Below are positions 17,817 to 62,110 of a stretch of DNA of 64,000 nt, piece after piece. Where the stretch lies: contig NZ_JABTCF010000012.1 in NCBI RefSeq assembly GCF_014596745.1, positions 62,001 through 126,000 on the forward strand. The letters run 5' to 3'. Source of the DNA: Maribacter aquimaris. GTDB lineage: Bacteria > Bacteroidota > Bacteroidia > Flavobacteriales > Flavobacteriaceae. Each line of letters starts with the position of its first letter. Within the stretch, counting starts at the first letter, position 1. Under the pieces are notes generated by a model. It was given only the letters and a program-made list of their open reading frames with translations. It had not been told where the DNA came from and did no database searches. A program made the translations under genes and the position numbers.

Positions 17817-18740
17817 ATGAAAGCTATAAAACTTCACCTTGGATTATTATTGATAGGAATCTTAATGTCTTCTTGTTATACGGAAGTGATACTCGAGGAT
17901 GAATTCATAGAGGAATCCGGTTTTAATACGGCCCAGGTATTGCAATCATTTGACCTTTGGTATATCGATATCAATGAGACGACAGGAAATGGGGAGGTTC
18001 CTTTTCTTCAACGAGCCTTTACCATTTCCTTTGATAATGGCAACGTATATGCGAACAATAATATCGCAGGACTTGGAAAGACCGGAAATGGCTATGGGAT
18101 CCAAATTGGTTATTTTAATGCCTTTCCTGGAACTTTGGAAATAGACCATGATGTTGATGGGCGGTGGTTATTGGATGTGTTTGCAGTCAATGGTAACACA
18201 TTGGAATTGTACGATTCCAACTCTAACACCTCCTATTATTTAAGAGGCTATCAGTTGAACCGTTTCGATTTCGATTTGGTATTTTATGACAACATAAAAT
18301 ATTTATTACAGGAATATGATGTATGGGAGAAAACGTATACCAGTGAAGTAGGGGCATTGAATGAATTTGATAGGGAGAACTTTCTACAGTTTTTTGAGAG
18401 TGGCCAGAATGATGTTTTTAAATCGTCCATTGACCCGATAGGCAGTGCCATAAACAACCTTCAATGGGATTATGAAGGGGATTATACCGTTTATGATGTA
18501 GAAAACGATGAAACGCTTAAAACTTTAAAGTTGGGGTATGATTTCATGGGCAATGATTACTTTGAGTTGTACGTTATTAATGATAGTACCATTGAATTGT
18601 ATCACCCCAGCAGTGGAACGGTGTATAGGTTTAAGGGAAGGGGTTACATTCAATACCTGAAATCCGATAAGACTTTGGACGGGAAGAAACGAAAGAAAAC
18701 GATAAACCCAGTGATGCAGGTGAAACGAAGTAGGGAATAA
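17817..18740 (+). CDS. Conserved lipoprotein of unknown function
   Basis: 307-residue lipoprotein: signal ending LMSSC (Cys20), then CYTEV. The mature part is rich in Asp, Asn, Tyr and Phe and seems to hold two related halves, since FLQRAFTISFDNGNVYANNN with VNGNTLELYDSN in the first half parallels DYTVYDVEN with INDSTIELYHPSSGTVYRF in the second; both halves end in a T-x-E-L-Y strand. A Lys/Arg-rich tail closes the protein. I recognise this as a flavobacterial surface lipoprotein type but know of no function. A GTG at 17808 is an alternative start that would add three residues; the ATG at 17817 is preferred. Downstream lies the hairpin/terminator element B. Confidence 0.75.
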   Translation: MKAIKLHLGLLLIGILMSSCYTEVILEDEFIEESGFNTAQVLQSFDLWYIDINETTGNGEVPFLQRAFTISFDNGNVYANNNIAGLGKTGNGYGIQIGYFNAFPGTLEIDHDVDGRWLLDVFAVNGNTLELYDSNSNTSYYLRGYQLNRFDFDLVFYDNIKYLLQEYDVWEKTYTSEVGALNEFDRENFLQFFESGQNDVFKSSIDPIGSAINNLQWDYEGDYTVYDVENDETLKTLKLGYDFMGNDYFELYVINDSTIELYHPSSGTVYRFKGRGYIQYLKSDKTLDGKKRKKTINPVMQVKRSRE

Positions 18741-18846
18741 TATAATCAACGCTTTAATGCAGTTAATGCGTTGATCAAATAAGGACTTTTTGGTTGGTTA
18801 TTAAGTTAAGAACCGCCCTGATCAAAACGATTGGGGCGTTTTTTTT
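18741..18846 (+). ncRNA. Candidate 3'-UTR/small RNA element B (hairpin, GTTGGTTATT box, terminator)
   Basis: Directly after the lipoprotein stop there is an 8-bp hairpin (ATCAACGC at 18745-18752 with GCGTTGAT at 18768-18775), then TTTTGGTTGGTTATT at about 18790-18803, then an intrinsic terminator with stem 18814-18823/18829-18838, loop AAAAC and eight T residues. The box is shared with elements near 2773 and 47376. It certainly can terminate the lipoprotein transcript; whether a separate small RNA is released is open. Confidence 0.5.
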
Positions 18847-18975
18847 GGGGATACAAAGAAGGGCTAAACACAAATGGAATGCTATAGGGGTCTCTCTTTT
18901 GGATCAATCCGTGCACACCTTTTGGGACTGACCCGTCTATTGGTCTAAGAAATGTACTGATCCATACATCAAGAT

Positions 18976-19824
18976 TCAATGATTCAAGTGCCTCCTTCTG
19001 AATTCTGAAGGATTTTCATCGGTTATCTTCCTAAAGGTGCGATTGAAATAGGATAAACTTTCAAAACCGCAAGCGTAACAGGTTTCACTTATATTTTTTC
19101 CGGTCAAAAGCAATCTTTTTGCTTGACTGATGCGATATTGGTTCAAGAATCCGACAAAAGTGGTTCCTGTTGTCTTTTTGAAATAACGGCAAAATGCAGG
19201 CTTGGTCATATGGCATAAAGTCGCAACCTCATCCAATGATATTTTATCCTGATAGCGCTCATCGATCAGACCATGGATTTTACGAAGGCGGCCTTGCTCC
19301 TTTTTACGGTATTTGTTGATAAAGGGTTTTTTATGGAGCAACTCAAATTCCTTGCTCTGCGAAAGTAGTTTTAGGATGGTGACGACCTGCATAAAGAAAT
19401 CAAAAGGCGATAGGGTGTGGAGCGTTTTCATAAGTTTACCGATTTCGGTTTTTGTACTGCCCGTAAATGCAATGCCATATTTTGAAAGTTCCAAAAGGTG
19501 CTCCAAGGATTGTAGTTCGGATGTTTGCTCAATAAAGTCCGTTTTAAAGGAGGGTTTAATATGCAATACTTCTTTCAAATAGGGGGTTTTTACACCATGA
19601 TCAAAATTCAAATGCGGAATATTTGATCCAATAAGTACCAAATCATTGTTTTTGTAGTGTGATATATGGTCACCTACATGGCGCTTTGCACTGGCTCCCT
19701 CAATATAGACCAATTCAAATTCCGGATGAAAATGCCAGTAATACAGATGGTTCAATTTAGGGTCATGTAGCAACCGGAAGGGACTTTTGGTTGGCTGGTC
19801 GAAGGTTTCTAGTTGGATTTTCAT
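18976..19824 (-). CDS. AraC family transcriptional regulator
   Basis: 282-residue regulator. The N-terminal half is a cupin-like sensor domain (YYWHFHPEFELVYI, then NDLVLIGSNIPHL), the C-terminal ~100 residues are the paired helix-turn-helix AraC domain (ISLDEVATLCHMTKPAFCRYFKK and ISETCYACGFESLSYFNRTFRK). It is divergently transcribed from the PhyH dioxygenase gene 142 bases away, the common arrangement for a regulator and its target. The inducer cannot be told from sequence. Confidence 0.93.
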   Translation of the reverse strand: MKIQLETFDQPTKSPFRLLHDPKLNHLYYWHFHPEFELVYIEGASAKRHVGDHISHYKNNDLVLIGSNIPHLNFDHGVKTPYLKEVLHIKPSFKTDFIEQTSELQSLEHLLELSKYGIAFTGSTKTEIGKLMKTLHTLSPFDFFMQVVTILKLLSQSKEFELLHKKPFINKYRKKEQGRLRKIHGLIDERYQDKISLDEVATLCHMTKPAFCRYFKKTTGTTFVGFLNQYRISQAKRLLLTGKNISETCYACGFESLSYFNRTFRKITDENPSEFRRRHLNH

Positions 19825-31192: not shown

Positions 31193-31912
31193 ATGCAAGT
31201 AACTACCAAGGCTATTGTTTTATCTACCTTAAAATTTGGGGATACTAGTTTGATCGTAAAGGCTTTTACGTTTTCCGACGGATTGAAATCCTATTTGCTC
31301 AAAGGGGTTTTGGCATCCAAAAAAGGGAAGTTGAAATCTGCCTATTTTCAGCCACTTACCCAATTGGAGATAGTCGCCAACCATAAGAATAAAGGTACTT
31401 TGGAGACGATTCGTGAGGTTAGGGTCTCCTATCCATATCAATCTTTGCATTTCGATATATCCAAGAATGCCATGACCATGTTTTTGGCTGAGATGTTAAC
31501 GAACAGTATTCAGGAAGAAGAATCCAATGAAGGGCTTTTTTACTATGTGGAAAGTGCGCTTCAATGGTTGGATACAAACAACCAAATTACCAACTTCCAT
31601 ATCTATTTCTTATTGGACCTGACCAAGTATTTAGGCTTTTATCCCGATGTAACCCACATTTCGAGGGCGTACTTTGATTTACTCGAGGGGGAGTTTATCG
31701 ACATAGCCAATTTAAACCCGAATATTTCGGGGGAAAATATAAATTATTTTAAAAGGTTCTTAGGCACAAATTTTGATGCAATTCATAACGTCAAGATGAA
31801 GAAGGTAGATAGGCAGCAGCTACTACAAACAATAGTCCTTTATTTTGAATTACATTTGCAGGGATTTCGAAAACCCAAGTCTCTGGCTATTTTAAATGAA
31901 GTTTTCAGTTAA
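31193..31912 (+). CDS. recO: DNA repair and recombination protein RecO
   Basis: 239-residue RecO: helps load RecA onto gapped DNA with RecR and anneals single strands coated by SSB. The N-terminal OB-fold (QVTTKAIVLSTLKFGDTSLIVKAFT) and the helical C-terminal half with FHIYFLLDLTKYLGFYPD match the family. The zinc-binding Cys cluster of some RecO proteins is absent, as in many Bacteroidota. The TonB receptor begins one base after its stop codon, so the receptor is probably read from the same transcript, an unexpected pairing. Confidence 0.9.
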   Translation: MQVTTKAIVLSTLKFGDTSLIVKAFTFSDGLKSYLLKGVLASKKGKLKSAYFQPLTQLEIVANHKNKGTLETIREVRVSYPYQSLHFDISKNAMTMFLAEMLTNSIQEEESNEGLFYYVESALQWLDTNNQITNFHIYFLLDLTKYLGFYPDVTHISRAYFDLLEGEFIDIANLNPNISGENINYFKRFLGTNFDAIHNVKMKKVDRQQLLQTIVLYFELHLQGFRKPKSLAILNEVFS

Positions 31913-31913
31913 T

Positions 31914-34325
31914 ATGGATAAGGTAGTATTCCTTCTGTTTTTTATATTTTTAAATGCTGTTACCGCACAAGAAATCAGGGTACTGGACTATTATTCGAAA
32001 GAACCTATCGTAAATGTCGCGGTCTATAACCAGGATAAGTCAAAAGCGGCACTTTCGGATCTTGAAGGGGTTTGTGATATTTCCGTTTTCTCGGACAATG
32101 AACGAATTACCTTTAAGCATCTTAGTTACGAGATTCATAAAGCCACAAAAATCCAGTTATTGAGGAATGGTGCAGAGGTCTATTTGGTAATCAGGCCGGA
32201 AGAACTCGATGAGGTGGTTATGTCTATATCAAAATGGGAACAACAAAAAAAAGACATACCCCATAAAATTGTTGCGTTGAATGCAAGGGCTATCGCATTT
32301 ACAAACCCACAAACCTCGGCGGATCTCCTCCAAAACAGTGGTAAGGTATTTGTGCAAAAAAGCCAACTTGGGGGTGGTAGTCCTATGATAAGGGGTTTTG
32401 CGACCAATAGATTGTTGTTGACGGTTGATGGTGTTCGTATGAACAATGCCATATTCCGAGGGGGTAACCTACAGAATGTCATTTCAATAGATCCTTTTAA
32501 TATTGAGAAGACCGAAGTGATTTTTGGTCCAGGTTCTGTGATCTACGGCAGTGATGCCCTTGGTGGGGTCATGAATTTTTACACCAAAAGAGCCATTTTC
32601 TCCCATAAGGACAGTCTTGAGGTTTCTGGACACTCGAATCTGAGATATGCCTCGGCCAACAATGAAAGAACGGGCCATTTTGATATTAACTTGGGCAAAA
32701 AAAAATGGGCCTTTCTAACCGGTGTGTCCTATAATGATTTTGATGACTTGAAAATGGGTTCCCATGGTCCGGATTCATATAAAAGGAATAATTACGTCAC
32801 TACCGAAAATGGTCTCGATGTCCTTACGACAAATAGCGACCCTAGAAAGCAAGTAAGTACCGGTTACGACCAGTGGAATTTTATGCAGAAAATCACTCAC
32901 AAACCTAATAATAATTGGGGATTGGACATGGGATTGTTTTATTCCGAAACTTCTGATTATTCGCGTTACGATAGGTTGATCCGACCCGATAAGGAAGGGT
33001 CGGGACTGCGGTCTGCCGAATGGTACTACGGCCCCCAGAAATGGTTCATGGGGAATGTGCAGTTGAATAAAAAAGGGAAAGGGAAGTTCTATGACGGACT
33101 TAAAATAACAACGGCATACCAATATTTTGAGGAAAGTAGGAACGATCGGGGATTTCAAGACGCCATTTTATATTCGACAAGGGAAATGGTTCATGCGTTC
33201 TCGACCAATGTTGATTTTGAGAACAAGAAAATTGGGGATCTTCGATTGTATTATGGAACGTCATATGTTTTAAACAAGGTGGGTTCCGATGGTAGCCAGA
33301 AGGACATTACCACAAATTTAATAGCAGATGCGCCATCGCGGTATCCTGATGGGTCATCATGGCAAACGGCTGCGGCCTATTTAAACGGGGAGTATAAGGC
33401 AAAACCAAACTTCAGTCTGCTTTCAGGACTGCGATATAGTCATGTTTGGATCAATGCTGATTTTGATAAAACCTTTTATCCTTTCCCTTTTGATGATGCG
33501 AATCTCAGTACGGGGGCACTCACGGGTAGTATAGGTTTTAGTTGGTTTCCAAGGGCCAATTTACAAGTAACCTTAAATGGATCTACAGGGTTTAGGTCGC
33601 CCAATATCGATGATGTAGGAAAGGTTTTTGATTCGGAACCGGGTTCCGTTGTCGTGCCGAATCCTGATTTAGAACCGGAATATGCCTATAATATGGAGTT
33701 GGGTGTACAAAAAAACTATAATGACAAGGTCGTCTTTAAAGGGGCCGCGTTTTACACCTATTTGGTCGACGCCTTGGTGCGCAGGGATTATCTGTTCAAT
33801 GGGGAATCACAAATTGAATACAATGGCGAATTGAGTACCGTTCAGGCCATGCAAAATGCTGCCAAGGCTTATGTATATGGATTCGAATTCGGATTGGAGG
33901 CCTTTTTGACAGAAAATATATCATTGGTTTCCAATTTAACGTTGACCGAGGGTATTGAGGAAGAAGAAGATGGCACCGACAGTCCGTCTAGACATGTGCC
34001 CCCAACCTTTGGTGACGTTCATTTTGTGTTTAAAAATCAGAACCTAAAGACCGATTTCTTCCTGAATTTTAATGGGGAAATAGCAAATGACGATCTAGCA
34101 ACCTCTGAGCAGGCGAAAACATATATGTACGCGGAAGATGCAAATGGGTTACCCTATAGCCCTTCTTGGTATACGTTAAACCTTCGTACCCAATATCGAT
34201 TGAACAAAGGATTTGCGATTACCTGTAGTCTAGAGAATATGACAAATCAGCTTTATAGGTCGTATTCTTCAGGTATAGCGTCTCCAGGAACCAATCTTAT
34301 TTTGGGGGTCGACTATAGTTTTTAA
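31914..34325 (+). CDS. TonB-dependent outer-membrane receptor, heme/siderophore type
   Basis: 803-residue receptor from the ATG at 31914 (an ATG at 31896 inside recO adds six residues and spoils the signal). Signal peptide VVFLLFFIFLNAVTA, then a carboxypeptidase-like beta domain (about residues 20-100), the plug (SPMIRGFATNRLLLTVDGVRMN, EVIFGPGSVIYGSDALGGVMNF) and a 22-strand barrel ending LILGVDYSF, the C-terminal Phe being the usual BAM signal. The barrel motif FRSPNIDDVGKVFD with VVPNPDLEPEY is characteristic of heme/hemoglobin-type receptors, so iron or heme uptake is likely. The final 22 codons are the first unit of a sixfold repeat. Confidence 0.92.
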   Translation: MDKVVFLLFFIFLNAVTAQEIRVLDYYSKEPIVNVAVYNQDKSKAALSDLEGVCDISVFSDNERITFKHLSYEIHKATKIQLLRNGAEVYLVIRPEELDEVVMSISKWEQQKKDIPHKIVALNARAIAFTNPQTSADLLQNSGKVFVQKSQLGGGSPMIRGFATNRLLLTVDGVRMNNAIFRGGNLQNVISIDPFNIEKTEVIFGPGSVIYGSDALGGVMNFYTKRAIFSHKDSLEVSGHSNLRYASANNERTGHFDINLGKKKWAFLTGVSYNDFDDLKMGSHGPDSYKRNNYVTTENGLDVLTTNSDPRKQVSTGYDQWNFMQKITHKPNNNWGLDMGLFYSETSDYSRYDRLIRPDKEGSGLRSAEWYYGPQKWFMGNVQLNKKGKGKFYDGLKITTAYQYFEESRNDRGFQDAILYSTREMVHAFSTNVDFENKKIGDLRLYYGTSYVLNKVGSDGSQKDITTNLIADAPSRYPDGSSWQTAAAYLNGEYKAKPNFSLLSGLRYSHVWINADFDKTFYPFPFDDANLSTGALTGSIGFSWFPRANLQVTLNGSTGFRSPNIDDVGKVFDSEPGSVVVPNPDLEPEYAYNMELGVQKNYNDKVVFKGAAFYTYLVDALVRRDYLFNGESQIEYNGELSTVQAMQNAAKAYVYGFEFGLEAFLTENISLVSNLTLTEGIEEEEDGTDSPSRHVPPTFGDVHFVFKNQNLKTDFFLNFNGEIANDDLATSEQAKTYMYAEDANGLPYSPSWYTLNLRTQYRLNKGFAITCSLENMTNQLYRSYSSGIASPGTNLILGVDYSF

Positions 34326-34914
34326 ATAAAAAAACCCTGACATTCATCGTCAGGGTTCAATTTTATCGGTCGTATCCTTCAAGTATAGCGTCTCCAGGAA
34401 CCAATCTTATTTTGGGTGTCGACTATAGTTTTTAAATAAAAAAAACCCTGACATTCATCGTAAGGGTTCAATTTCGTCGGTCGTATTCTTCAGGTATAGC
34501 GTCTCCAGGAACCAATCTTATTTTGGGGGTCGCGACTATAGTTTTAAATAAAAAAAACCCTGACATTTATCGTCAGGGTTCAATTTCGTCGGTCGTATTC
34601 CTTAGGTATAGCATCCCAGGAACCAATCTTATTTTGGGTGTCGACTATAGTTTTTAAATAAAAAAAACCCTGACATTTATCGTCAGGGTTCAATTTTATC
34701 GGTCGTATTCTTCAGGTATAGCGTCTCCAGGAACCAATCTTATTTTGGGGGTCGACTATAGTTTTTAAATAAAAAAAACCCTGACATTCATCGTCAGGGT
34801 TCAATTTTATCGGTCGTATTCCTCAGGTATAGCATCCCAGGAACCAATCTTATTTTGGGGGTCGACTATAGTTTTTAAATAAAAAAAACCCTGACATTTA
34901 TCGTCAGGGTTCAA
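34258..34914. repeat. Six tandem ~110-bp repeats of the receptor 3' end plus terminator
   Basis: Units begin at 34258, 34368, 34479, 34591, 34701 and 34812 (periods 110, 111, 112, 110, 111). Unit 1 is the last 22 codons, stop and terminator of the TonB receptor. Units 2 and 5 keep the frame through the TAA; unit 3 has a two-base insertion (GTCGCGAC), and units 4 and 6 share a one-base loss in the GCATCCCAGG segment. Each unit carries a 9-bp stem (AACCCTGAC/GTCAGGGTT) with an A-run on its left side, i.e. a strong terminator for minus-strand transcription and a weak one on the plus strand. Looks like slippage or unequal recombination copies; not CRISPR, as there are no unique spacers. Confidence 0.95.
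34883..34912 (-). terminator. Intrinsic terminator of the LEA-like gene (first of six)
   Basis: On the minus strand the stem AACCCTGAC/GTCAGGGTT is followed by a run of eight T residues. It is the first such hairpin met by leftward transcription from the LEA-like gene; five more copies follow in the repeat array. Confidence 0.8.
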
Positions 34915-34935
34915 TACTCTTAATGTGAAAAACGC

Positions 34936-35355
34936 TTAGTTTTTGATAACGTCTTTTACTTCAGCGGCTTTTTCTTTAGCCTTATCAGCAGCATCAGTAG
35001 CGGCATCTTTAACATCGGCGCCAGCTTCTTTAGCTTTGTCAACGGCAGCACCAGCAGCGTCTTTTACACCTTCGGCTGCATTTTCACCAGCTTCTTTAGC
35101 ACTGTCAACAGCGTTTCCGGCTTTGTCCATAGCACCTTCAGCAGCTTCACCAGCGGCATCGGTAGCATTTTCGATTGCTTCACCAGTAGCATCAGCAGCT
35201 TCGTCAATGGCTTCACCTGCAGCATCGGCAGCTTCGCCCATGGCTTCACCAGCTTTTTCTGTGGCTTCACCAGCTTTTTCGGCAGTTTCTCTACATGAAA
35301 CGAATGATACGCTCATAGCGATCATTAAAATTGCACTAAAAATTAATTTTTTCAT
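34936..35355 (-). CDS. Ala/Glu/Lys-rich LEA-like lipoprotein
   Basis: 139-residue exported protein. Signal MKKLIFSAILMIAMSVSFVSC (Cys21 as lipobox) shown in two parts: the core AILMIAMSV and the lipobox FVSC. The whole mature part (residues 22-139) consists of loose 11-residue repeats of the form GEAxDEAADAT/GEAAEGAMDKA, the pattern of group-3 LEA proteins and apolipoprotein-like amphipathic helices. Such proteins are disordered in solution and helical on membranes or when dried, so an envelope-protecting or spacer role is plausible but unproved. Low sequence complexity means database hits would be weak evidence. It is followed by six terminator copies. Confidence 0.8.
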   Translation of the reverse strand: MKKLIFSAILMIAMSVSFVSCRETAEKAGEATEKAGEAMGEAADAAGEAIDEAADATGEAIENATDAAGEAAEGAMDKAGNAVDSAKEAGENAAEGVKDAAGAAVDKAKEAGADVKDAATDAADKAKEKAAEVKDVIKN

Positions 35356-61464: not shown

Positions 61465-61509
61465 GGATTGGTAGAATAAGTTTGTGGCGATTGGTAGCCA
61501 ATTCACAGG

Positions 61510-62110
61510 GTATTCCCGTAAAGCTGGTTTGTTGTCCTAGGAGGTATCCCTGCGAAGCTGGGTTGTTGCCCTGCAAGGTATTCCCGTGAAGCGGGTTTGT
61601 TGACCTGTAAGGTATTCCCGCGGAGCTGGTTTGTTGACCTGCAAGGTATTCCCGCGAAGTTGGTTTTGTTGACCTGCAGGGTATTACCGCGAAGCGGGTT
61701 TGTTGACCTGCGAGGTATTCCCGCGAAGTTGGGTTGTTATCCTGCGAGGTATTCCCGTGAAGTTGGGTTGTTACCCTGCAAGGTATTCCCGTGAAGCGGG
61801 TTTGTTGACCTGCAAGGTATTCCCGCGAAGTTGGGTTGTTGACTTGCAAGTTAACTCTGGGAAGCGGGTTTGTTGCCCTGCAAGGTATTCCCACGAAGTT
61901 GGGTTGTTATCCTGCAAGGTATTCCCACGAAGTTGGGTTGTTGCCCTGCAAGGTAACTCTGGGAAGCTTGGTTGTTGTCCTGCAAGGTATTCCCGCGAAG
62001 TTGGGTTGTTACCCTGCGAGGTATTCCCGTGAAGCGGGTTTGTTGACCTGCAAGGTATTCCCGTGAAGCGGGTTTGTTGACCTGCAAGGTATTCCCGCGA
62101 AGCGGGTTCC
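61510..62110. repeat. 34-bp tandem repeat array, about 17.6 units
   Basis: Units start at 61510, 61544, 61578, 61612, 61646, 61681, 61715, 61749, 61783, 61817, 61851, 61885, 61919, 61953, 61987, 62021, 62055 and 62089 (last one partial). Period 34 except one of 35. Consensus head GTATTCCCGYGAAG, middle CGGGTTTG or TTGGGTTG, tail TTGACCTGCAAG. Two units (61851 and 61953) have a different head (TAACTCTGGG). Units with CCCGTGAAGCGGG or CCCGCGAAGCGGG can form a five-bp stem with loop GAA. The block is more G+C-rich than its surroundings, fills the gap between a TonB receptor and a DUF5689 gene, and has no unique spacers. Translated frames across it are artefacts of the period. Confidence 0.95.

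Follow-up and report, generated by a model that had tools for sequence, protein, structure and literature searches.

Why does the 3' end of a receptor gene, together with the hairpin behind it, stand six times in a row in one Maribacter genome? We addressed this question in a window of 64,000 nucleotides, by which we mean the whole stretch of DNA that was analysed; named relatives place its host as a Maribacter near M. polysiphoniae. The gene order at the locus is a RecO gene, the gene for a TonB-dependent receptor (31896-34325, plus strand; an ORF of 809 amino acids with Pfam TonB_dep_Rec_b-barrel and Plug matches), the array, a convergent minus-strand ORF for a small alanine-rich lipoprotein-like protein (34936-35355, 139 amino acids), and a class I tRNA synthetase gene that we take to be ileS. 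The lipoprotein-like gene, called LEA-like in the initial annotation, matches Pfam apolipoprotein and NCBIfam Ag473, both far below the curated cut-offs. Its protein and the orthologues carry 33-bp internal repeats that differ among Maribacter species. The window also holds a 34-bp unit in tandem at 61509-62108 (17.6 copies, 82% matches).

TRF reported 6.0 copies of a 110-bp period with 93% matches at 34252-34915, and the sequence and a unit alignment confirmed the sixfold tandem repeat of receptor tail, stop codon and hairpin described in the initial annotation. Every unit comprises the receptor's 23 terminal codons, a stop codon and a hairpin of 25 bases; counting the codons from the Arg of RSYSSGIASPGTNLILGVDYSF gives 22, and including the preceding Tyr gives 23. 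Units 1 to 6 are 110, 111, 112, 110, 111 and 111 bp long in the alignment (the last including one flanking base). The longest exact repeat within the array is 77 bp, compared with at most 14 bp in 200 shuffles. With head-to-tail units of 110-112 bp and 93% matches, the array is built like an intergenic minisatellite, in which highly alike units of approximately 10-200 bp follow one another.

The six units, all read on the plus strand, differ in their coding state: the frame is kept to the stop codon in units 1, 2 and 5, and lost in units 3, 4 and 6. Unit 1 (34252-34361; hairpin 34333-34357) contains the functional receptor end and stop codon, its coding part being the terminal 23 codons of the gene. 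Unit 2 (34362-34472; hairpin 34444-34468) is in frame with two residues changed relative to unit 1. Unit 5 (34695-34805; hairpin 34777-34801) encodes the receptor tail exactly, as noted previously, and its DNA departs from that of unit 1 in two columns, with a synonymous AGG/CGG change in one and an additional A in an A-run in the other. Unit 3 (34473-34584; hairpin 34556-34580) is frameshifted by a 2-base insertion. Units 4 (34585-34694; hairpin 34666-34690) and 6 (34806-34915; hairpin 34887-34911) are also frameshifted and do share the one-base loss that had been attributed to them, a CCCC run of M. polysiphoniae being CCC here.

This pattern bears on an early proposal that the array is a reservoir of C-terminal strands, i.e., a source of alternative receptor ends that are recombined into unit 1 and vary the last barrel strand. 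Units 1, 2, 3 and 5 have derived bases in common, which suggests that the expressed end exchanged with, or gave rise to, array copies. However, three of the five extra copies are frameshifted, the two in-frame copies are nearly identical to unit 1 (one encodes an identical tail, the other differs at two residues), and the receptor protein tail of M. polysiphoniae is the same. Silent copies both in frame and diverse, as expected of a cassette reservoir, were not found. We consider this proposal extremely improbable.

We compared the locus among relatives, as the initial annotation had suggested. The nearest named relative, M. polysiphoniae DSM 23514, has a receptor that is 98% identical. We searched 11 congeners and found the receptor in 10 (the genome without a match is 68% complete); the array was absent in all 10, including M. 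polysiphoniae. In nine of these, a single hairpin is followed by the convergent lipoprotein-like gene, and in the tenth (G003), which also has one hairpin, the neighbour gene is different. The M. polysiphoniae flank past its single hairpin equals the flank past unit 6 over 25 bases. We also examined the loci of 80 named relatives, which overlap the congener set and four of which had less than 1.1 kb of flank. No copy of the receptor tail was found close to the stop codon at any of the 80; two tail matches of 13 and 18 bases were more than 1.5 kb away, and at three loci short repeats with a period of 12-14 lay close to the stop. Copy number between species is therefore six here and one in the 10 congeners, with one genome compared per species, and the array is private to this genome within the relatives examined. 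In the host genome itself, the full-length unit occurs at one place, the array; two weak matches beyond it (31 and 41 bases, E 2e-4 to 8e-4) fall on similar hairpins. A dispersed, MIRU-like repeat family was rejected, as the unit is full-length at the array alone. No Rfam family matched the window at gathering scores.

The repeated hairpin has the G+C-rich stem, short loop and T-tract of an intrinsic terminator, and is a predicted terminator by these features. Its T-tract is strong on the minus strand and weak on the plus strand. The full stem is kept in five of six hairpins, which fold at -14.2 to -15.3 kcal/mol; that of unit 2 has one broken pair and folds at -7.8/-8.9 kcal/mol. In a terminator scan, five of the six units were called for the minus strand and three for the plus strand. 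It found nine terminator-like sites in the region, one of them outside the array, versus a mean of 2.1 in shuffles. The battery of six terminators described initially is thus partly upheld: five full stems are present, but the hairpin of unit 2 is damaged and the scan calls fall short of six on either strand. The stem word was matched in all 12 Maribacter genomes, between one and nine times in each (nine in the host genome, five of them in the array). This recurrence suggests a common terminator form, and the hairpin is probably an old terminator.

We next consider whether six serial terminators were selected as an insulator that prevents transcripts of the receptor and lipoprotein-like genes from extending into each other. 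The five intact stems and the strong minus-strand T-tracts are consistent with this idea, as is the plus-strand tail after the stem, CAATTTTATC, which is made by the duplication junction and is terminator-like in three units, whereas the single-copy flank CAATACTC was not called. In contrast, nine congeners of the same convergent layout have one hairpin, the stem of unit 2 is damaged, and stem conservation is not significant: 1 of 18 stem columns is variable versus 13 of 76 coding columns (Fisher p = 0.29, a test with few columns and low power). A selected battery would be kept in relatives or have significantly conserved stems; it is kept in 0 of 10 congeners, and we found no sign of selection on the array in the comparison of stem with coding columns or among relatives. 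The transcription insulator raised in the initial annotation is therefore unsupported, and we regard it as quite improbable.

The history of the units is recorded in their shared variants. Relative to M. polysiphoniae, units 1, 2, 3 and 5 have two derived bases in common, and at one of the two sites units 4 and 6 retain the ancestral base. Two bases at the start are common to units 3 and 4, another base to units 2 and 4, and a loop base to units 3, 4 and 6. Among 14 unit characters there are eight incompatible pairs, although three of the characters have an equal pattern and are thus not independent. These groupings are mutually inconsistent and require either exchange among units or repeated mutation. 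Pairwise differences between units amount to 2-10 of about 111 columns. Proportionally, this is similar to the divergence of the receptor gene from that of M. polysiphoniae (119 differences in 2430 bases; 96 codons synonymous, 18 nonsynonymous), suggesting that the array is not brand new but has existed for a while. Copying of multi-unit blocks, as proposed earlier, is plausible and fits the shared variants, but these do not clearly follow a tidy two-unit period. TRF scored a period of 221 at 1189 versus 1156 for a period of 110, and units two apart differ on average by 7.25 versus 7.4 for neighbours. A strict 221-bp dimer structure was considered and could not be established, as the 1-3-5/2-4-6 split was second of ten and lag-2 units are barely closer. 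No microhomology was found at the first duplication join in the present sequence.

Based on these observations, the array is likely a lineage-restricted, near-neutral minisatellite derived from a gene end and its terminator, with the redundant terminators a side effect. The ancestral layout would have been that of the congeners: receptor gene, single hairpin terminator, and convergent lipoprotein-like gene. Approximately 110 bp, comprising the receptor's 23 terminal codons and the hairpin, would have been duplicated once, and homologous exchange between the copies would then have generated six units and mixed their variants. Unit 1 would still code for the intact receptor end, while units 2-6 would be noncoding and drifting. 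In the cell, the hairpins could end the minus-strand transcript, which would first meet that of unit 6, and could end the receptor transcript more weakly, beginning with that of unit 1; the inner copies are probably redundant. The simple slippage product offered in the initial annotation agrees with a tandem duplication in this genome only, but not with a single step, since the shared variants conflict and so point to exchange in several rounds. We infer near-neutrality from the frameshifts in three of five extra units, the one damaged hairpin and the absence of the array in congeners. Weak selection may nevertheless act on the array, given that only one of six hairpins is damaged and the stems are, in proportion, least variable.

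Could the array be an artefact of assembly? The genome is a draft of 27 contigs, and two of its other arrays lie at contig ends. However, the units have distinguishing variants, and the longest exact repeat, at 77 bp, is below the length of ordinary short reads. We consider an artefact very unlikely, although the true copy number could differ from six.

We compared the array with known systems. Natural tandem terminators consist of several consecutive hairpin/T-tract sites downstream of a gene. The array resembles them as a hairpin/T-tract series 3' of a gene; unlike them, its series derives from joint duplication of gene end and hairpin, and is absent in the relatives examined. Our literature search, whose coverage was incomplete and does not prove absence, found no report of repeated gene ends with terminators or of intergenic tandem repeats in Maribacter. 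According to PMC2734929 (citing Supply et al. 1997, 2000), a MIRU-VNTR of Mycobacterium tuberculosis lies between rnc and fpg1, MIRUs are dispersed at 41 places, and the length of the repeats upstream of fpg1 went with expression. As so described, the likeness is in tandem units of tens to about 100 bp, between two genes, in one lineage and beside a conserved gene. Unlike MIRUs at 41 places, the full-length Maribacter unit occurs at one, and unlike the fpg1 VNTR, the Maribacter array lies between convergent 3' ends and contains a gene tail and terminator. The yeast CUP1 locus (PMC4232551) also has tandem duplications out of a single-copy locus; there, in a eukaryote, the whole gene is duplicated, whereas here it is the gene end only, with no evident benefit.

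A search for other genes with repeated 3' ends, also suggested by the initial annotation, was performed in a sample of 1.264 of the 4.86 Mb of the host genome (window included), which consists of evenly spaced pieces of few contigs and is non-random. Among mechanically predicted ORFs, tail words recurred within 400 bases at 7 of 1045 3' ends. These seven are the receptor, four small ORFs within arrays (L114, L153, L160, and window 61699-62032), L130 and L157. The corresponding counts were 0 of 328 in M. polysiphoniae and 7 of 318 in G008, where five lie in the L194 repeats and the others in L207 and L212.

Intergenic arrays were collected with TRF at a period of at least 50 and sorted by eye. 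The host sample has approximately eight or nine in 1.264 Mb (window, L114, L121, L142, L153, two in L160, and one or two in L172), M. polysiphoniae has two in 0.4 Mb (L176, L183), and G008 has none in 0.4 Mb, L194 being set aside as within-gene repeats. Three other congeners also have none in 0.4 Mb; here we set aside L232 and L239, whose arrays are presumably CRISPR, and L243, where the repeat is inside an ORF and TRF missed a diverged array known to be there. Given this miss and a sample made of few-contig pieces, a difference in array rate is only suggested; an array-forming tendency of this lineage is plausible. The host sample contains other intergenic arrays with units of about 110-210 bp. 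Arrays of 124-129 bp built on a GTCATTTCGAAGGAGG...GAGAAATC element lie at L121:9032-9348 and L160:13334-14621 and 18244-19099, and L172:18178-19398 is a palindrome-rich intergenic cluster with a GAGGTCTCGACTGCGCTCGACC palindrome; units in L121, L160 and L172 are mostly about 122-129 bp. The arrays of L142 and L153 are intergenic and of low complexity. In M. polysiphoniae, a 149-bp unit stands twice at L176:4012-4311 (97% matches) and holds the first codons of a minus-strand ORF with the upstream region, a similar duplication of a gene start.

Two further arrays of the host genome are linked to tRNA genes. The first (L114:8793-9478) has six copies of 116 bp upstream of a tRNA-Met gene. The second, also of 116 bp, lies at two contig ends and contains the initial 20 bases of another tRNA-Met gene (L226:1-354, L228:2000-2126, L222), with three double hairpins on contig C8 and one on C6, i.e., at least four copies; we treat the two pieces as parts of a single array, since in the sister species both flanks stand together. 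The copy numbers in M. polysiphoniae are two at the first site and one at the second. The double hairpin, TCCTGA..TCAGGATGCTGA..TCAGCA or relatives of it, lies within a partial tRNA 5' copy, several in the D-loop. In five Maribacter genomes it directly precedes an intact tRNA-Met or tRNA-Asn gene, with further sites at L227:3040-3270 and in L216, L217 and L218; the strict pattern was found in 1 of 149 family genomes, the host alone. It may be an insertion element, or a relic of one, aimed at tRNA genes.

These arrays raise the possibility that an active process in this lineage expands gene ends and adjacent hairpins into head-to-tail arrays with units of about 110-130 bp. The 116-bp arrays of tRNA 5' ends and double hairpins at both tRNA-Met genes, and the lower copy numbers of M. 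polysiphoniae at those sites, argue for it. However, the sequences of the receptor-end and tRNA-linked elements are unlike, gene ends commonly carry hairpins, and the same samples contain arrays without a gene end; the sample is also non-random. We consider such a shared process unlikely.

A different terminator-bearing tandem array, which resembles small RNA genes, is present in 12 of 12 Maribacter genomes searched (L183:8178-9120 in M. polysiphoniae, G007:C1; G000:C8:105289-105806 and G000:C4:80-836 in the host genome). Its copies, spaced by about 200 bp or more, have a near-invariant core, CCAUAGCAUAAGUAGGUUAAGUUYAUGGUAAGAUUUGGG, then a varying paired terminator stem and U-tract. With three mismatches allowed, the core was found in 36 of 120 Flavobacteriaceae genomes, in up to six copies. 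Across an alignment of 26 copies (seven loci; one copy truncated), the 39-base core is invariant apart from one C/U position, and visual inspection shows changes on both sides of the terminator stems. No Rfam match was found in L183 up to E 0.1. The array is a candidate sibling sRNA family, and its presence in all 12 genomes makes it an example of a kept terminator array. The receptor-end array shows no such conservation of core or stem, and the small-RNA-like array and the tRNA 5'-end arrays look more interesting than it does.

The receptor-end array illustrates cleanly how a gene end and its terminator can become a minisatellite while the gene itself stays intact. Repetition of a terminator does not by itself indicate a device, and comparison with relatives decides. 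If the gene-end arrays of this genome do share a cause, they would offer a naturally occurring model in which to study how tandem duplication is provoked by hairpins.
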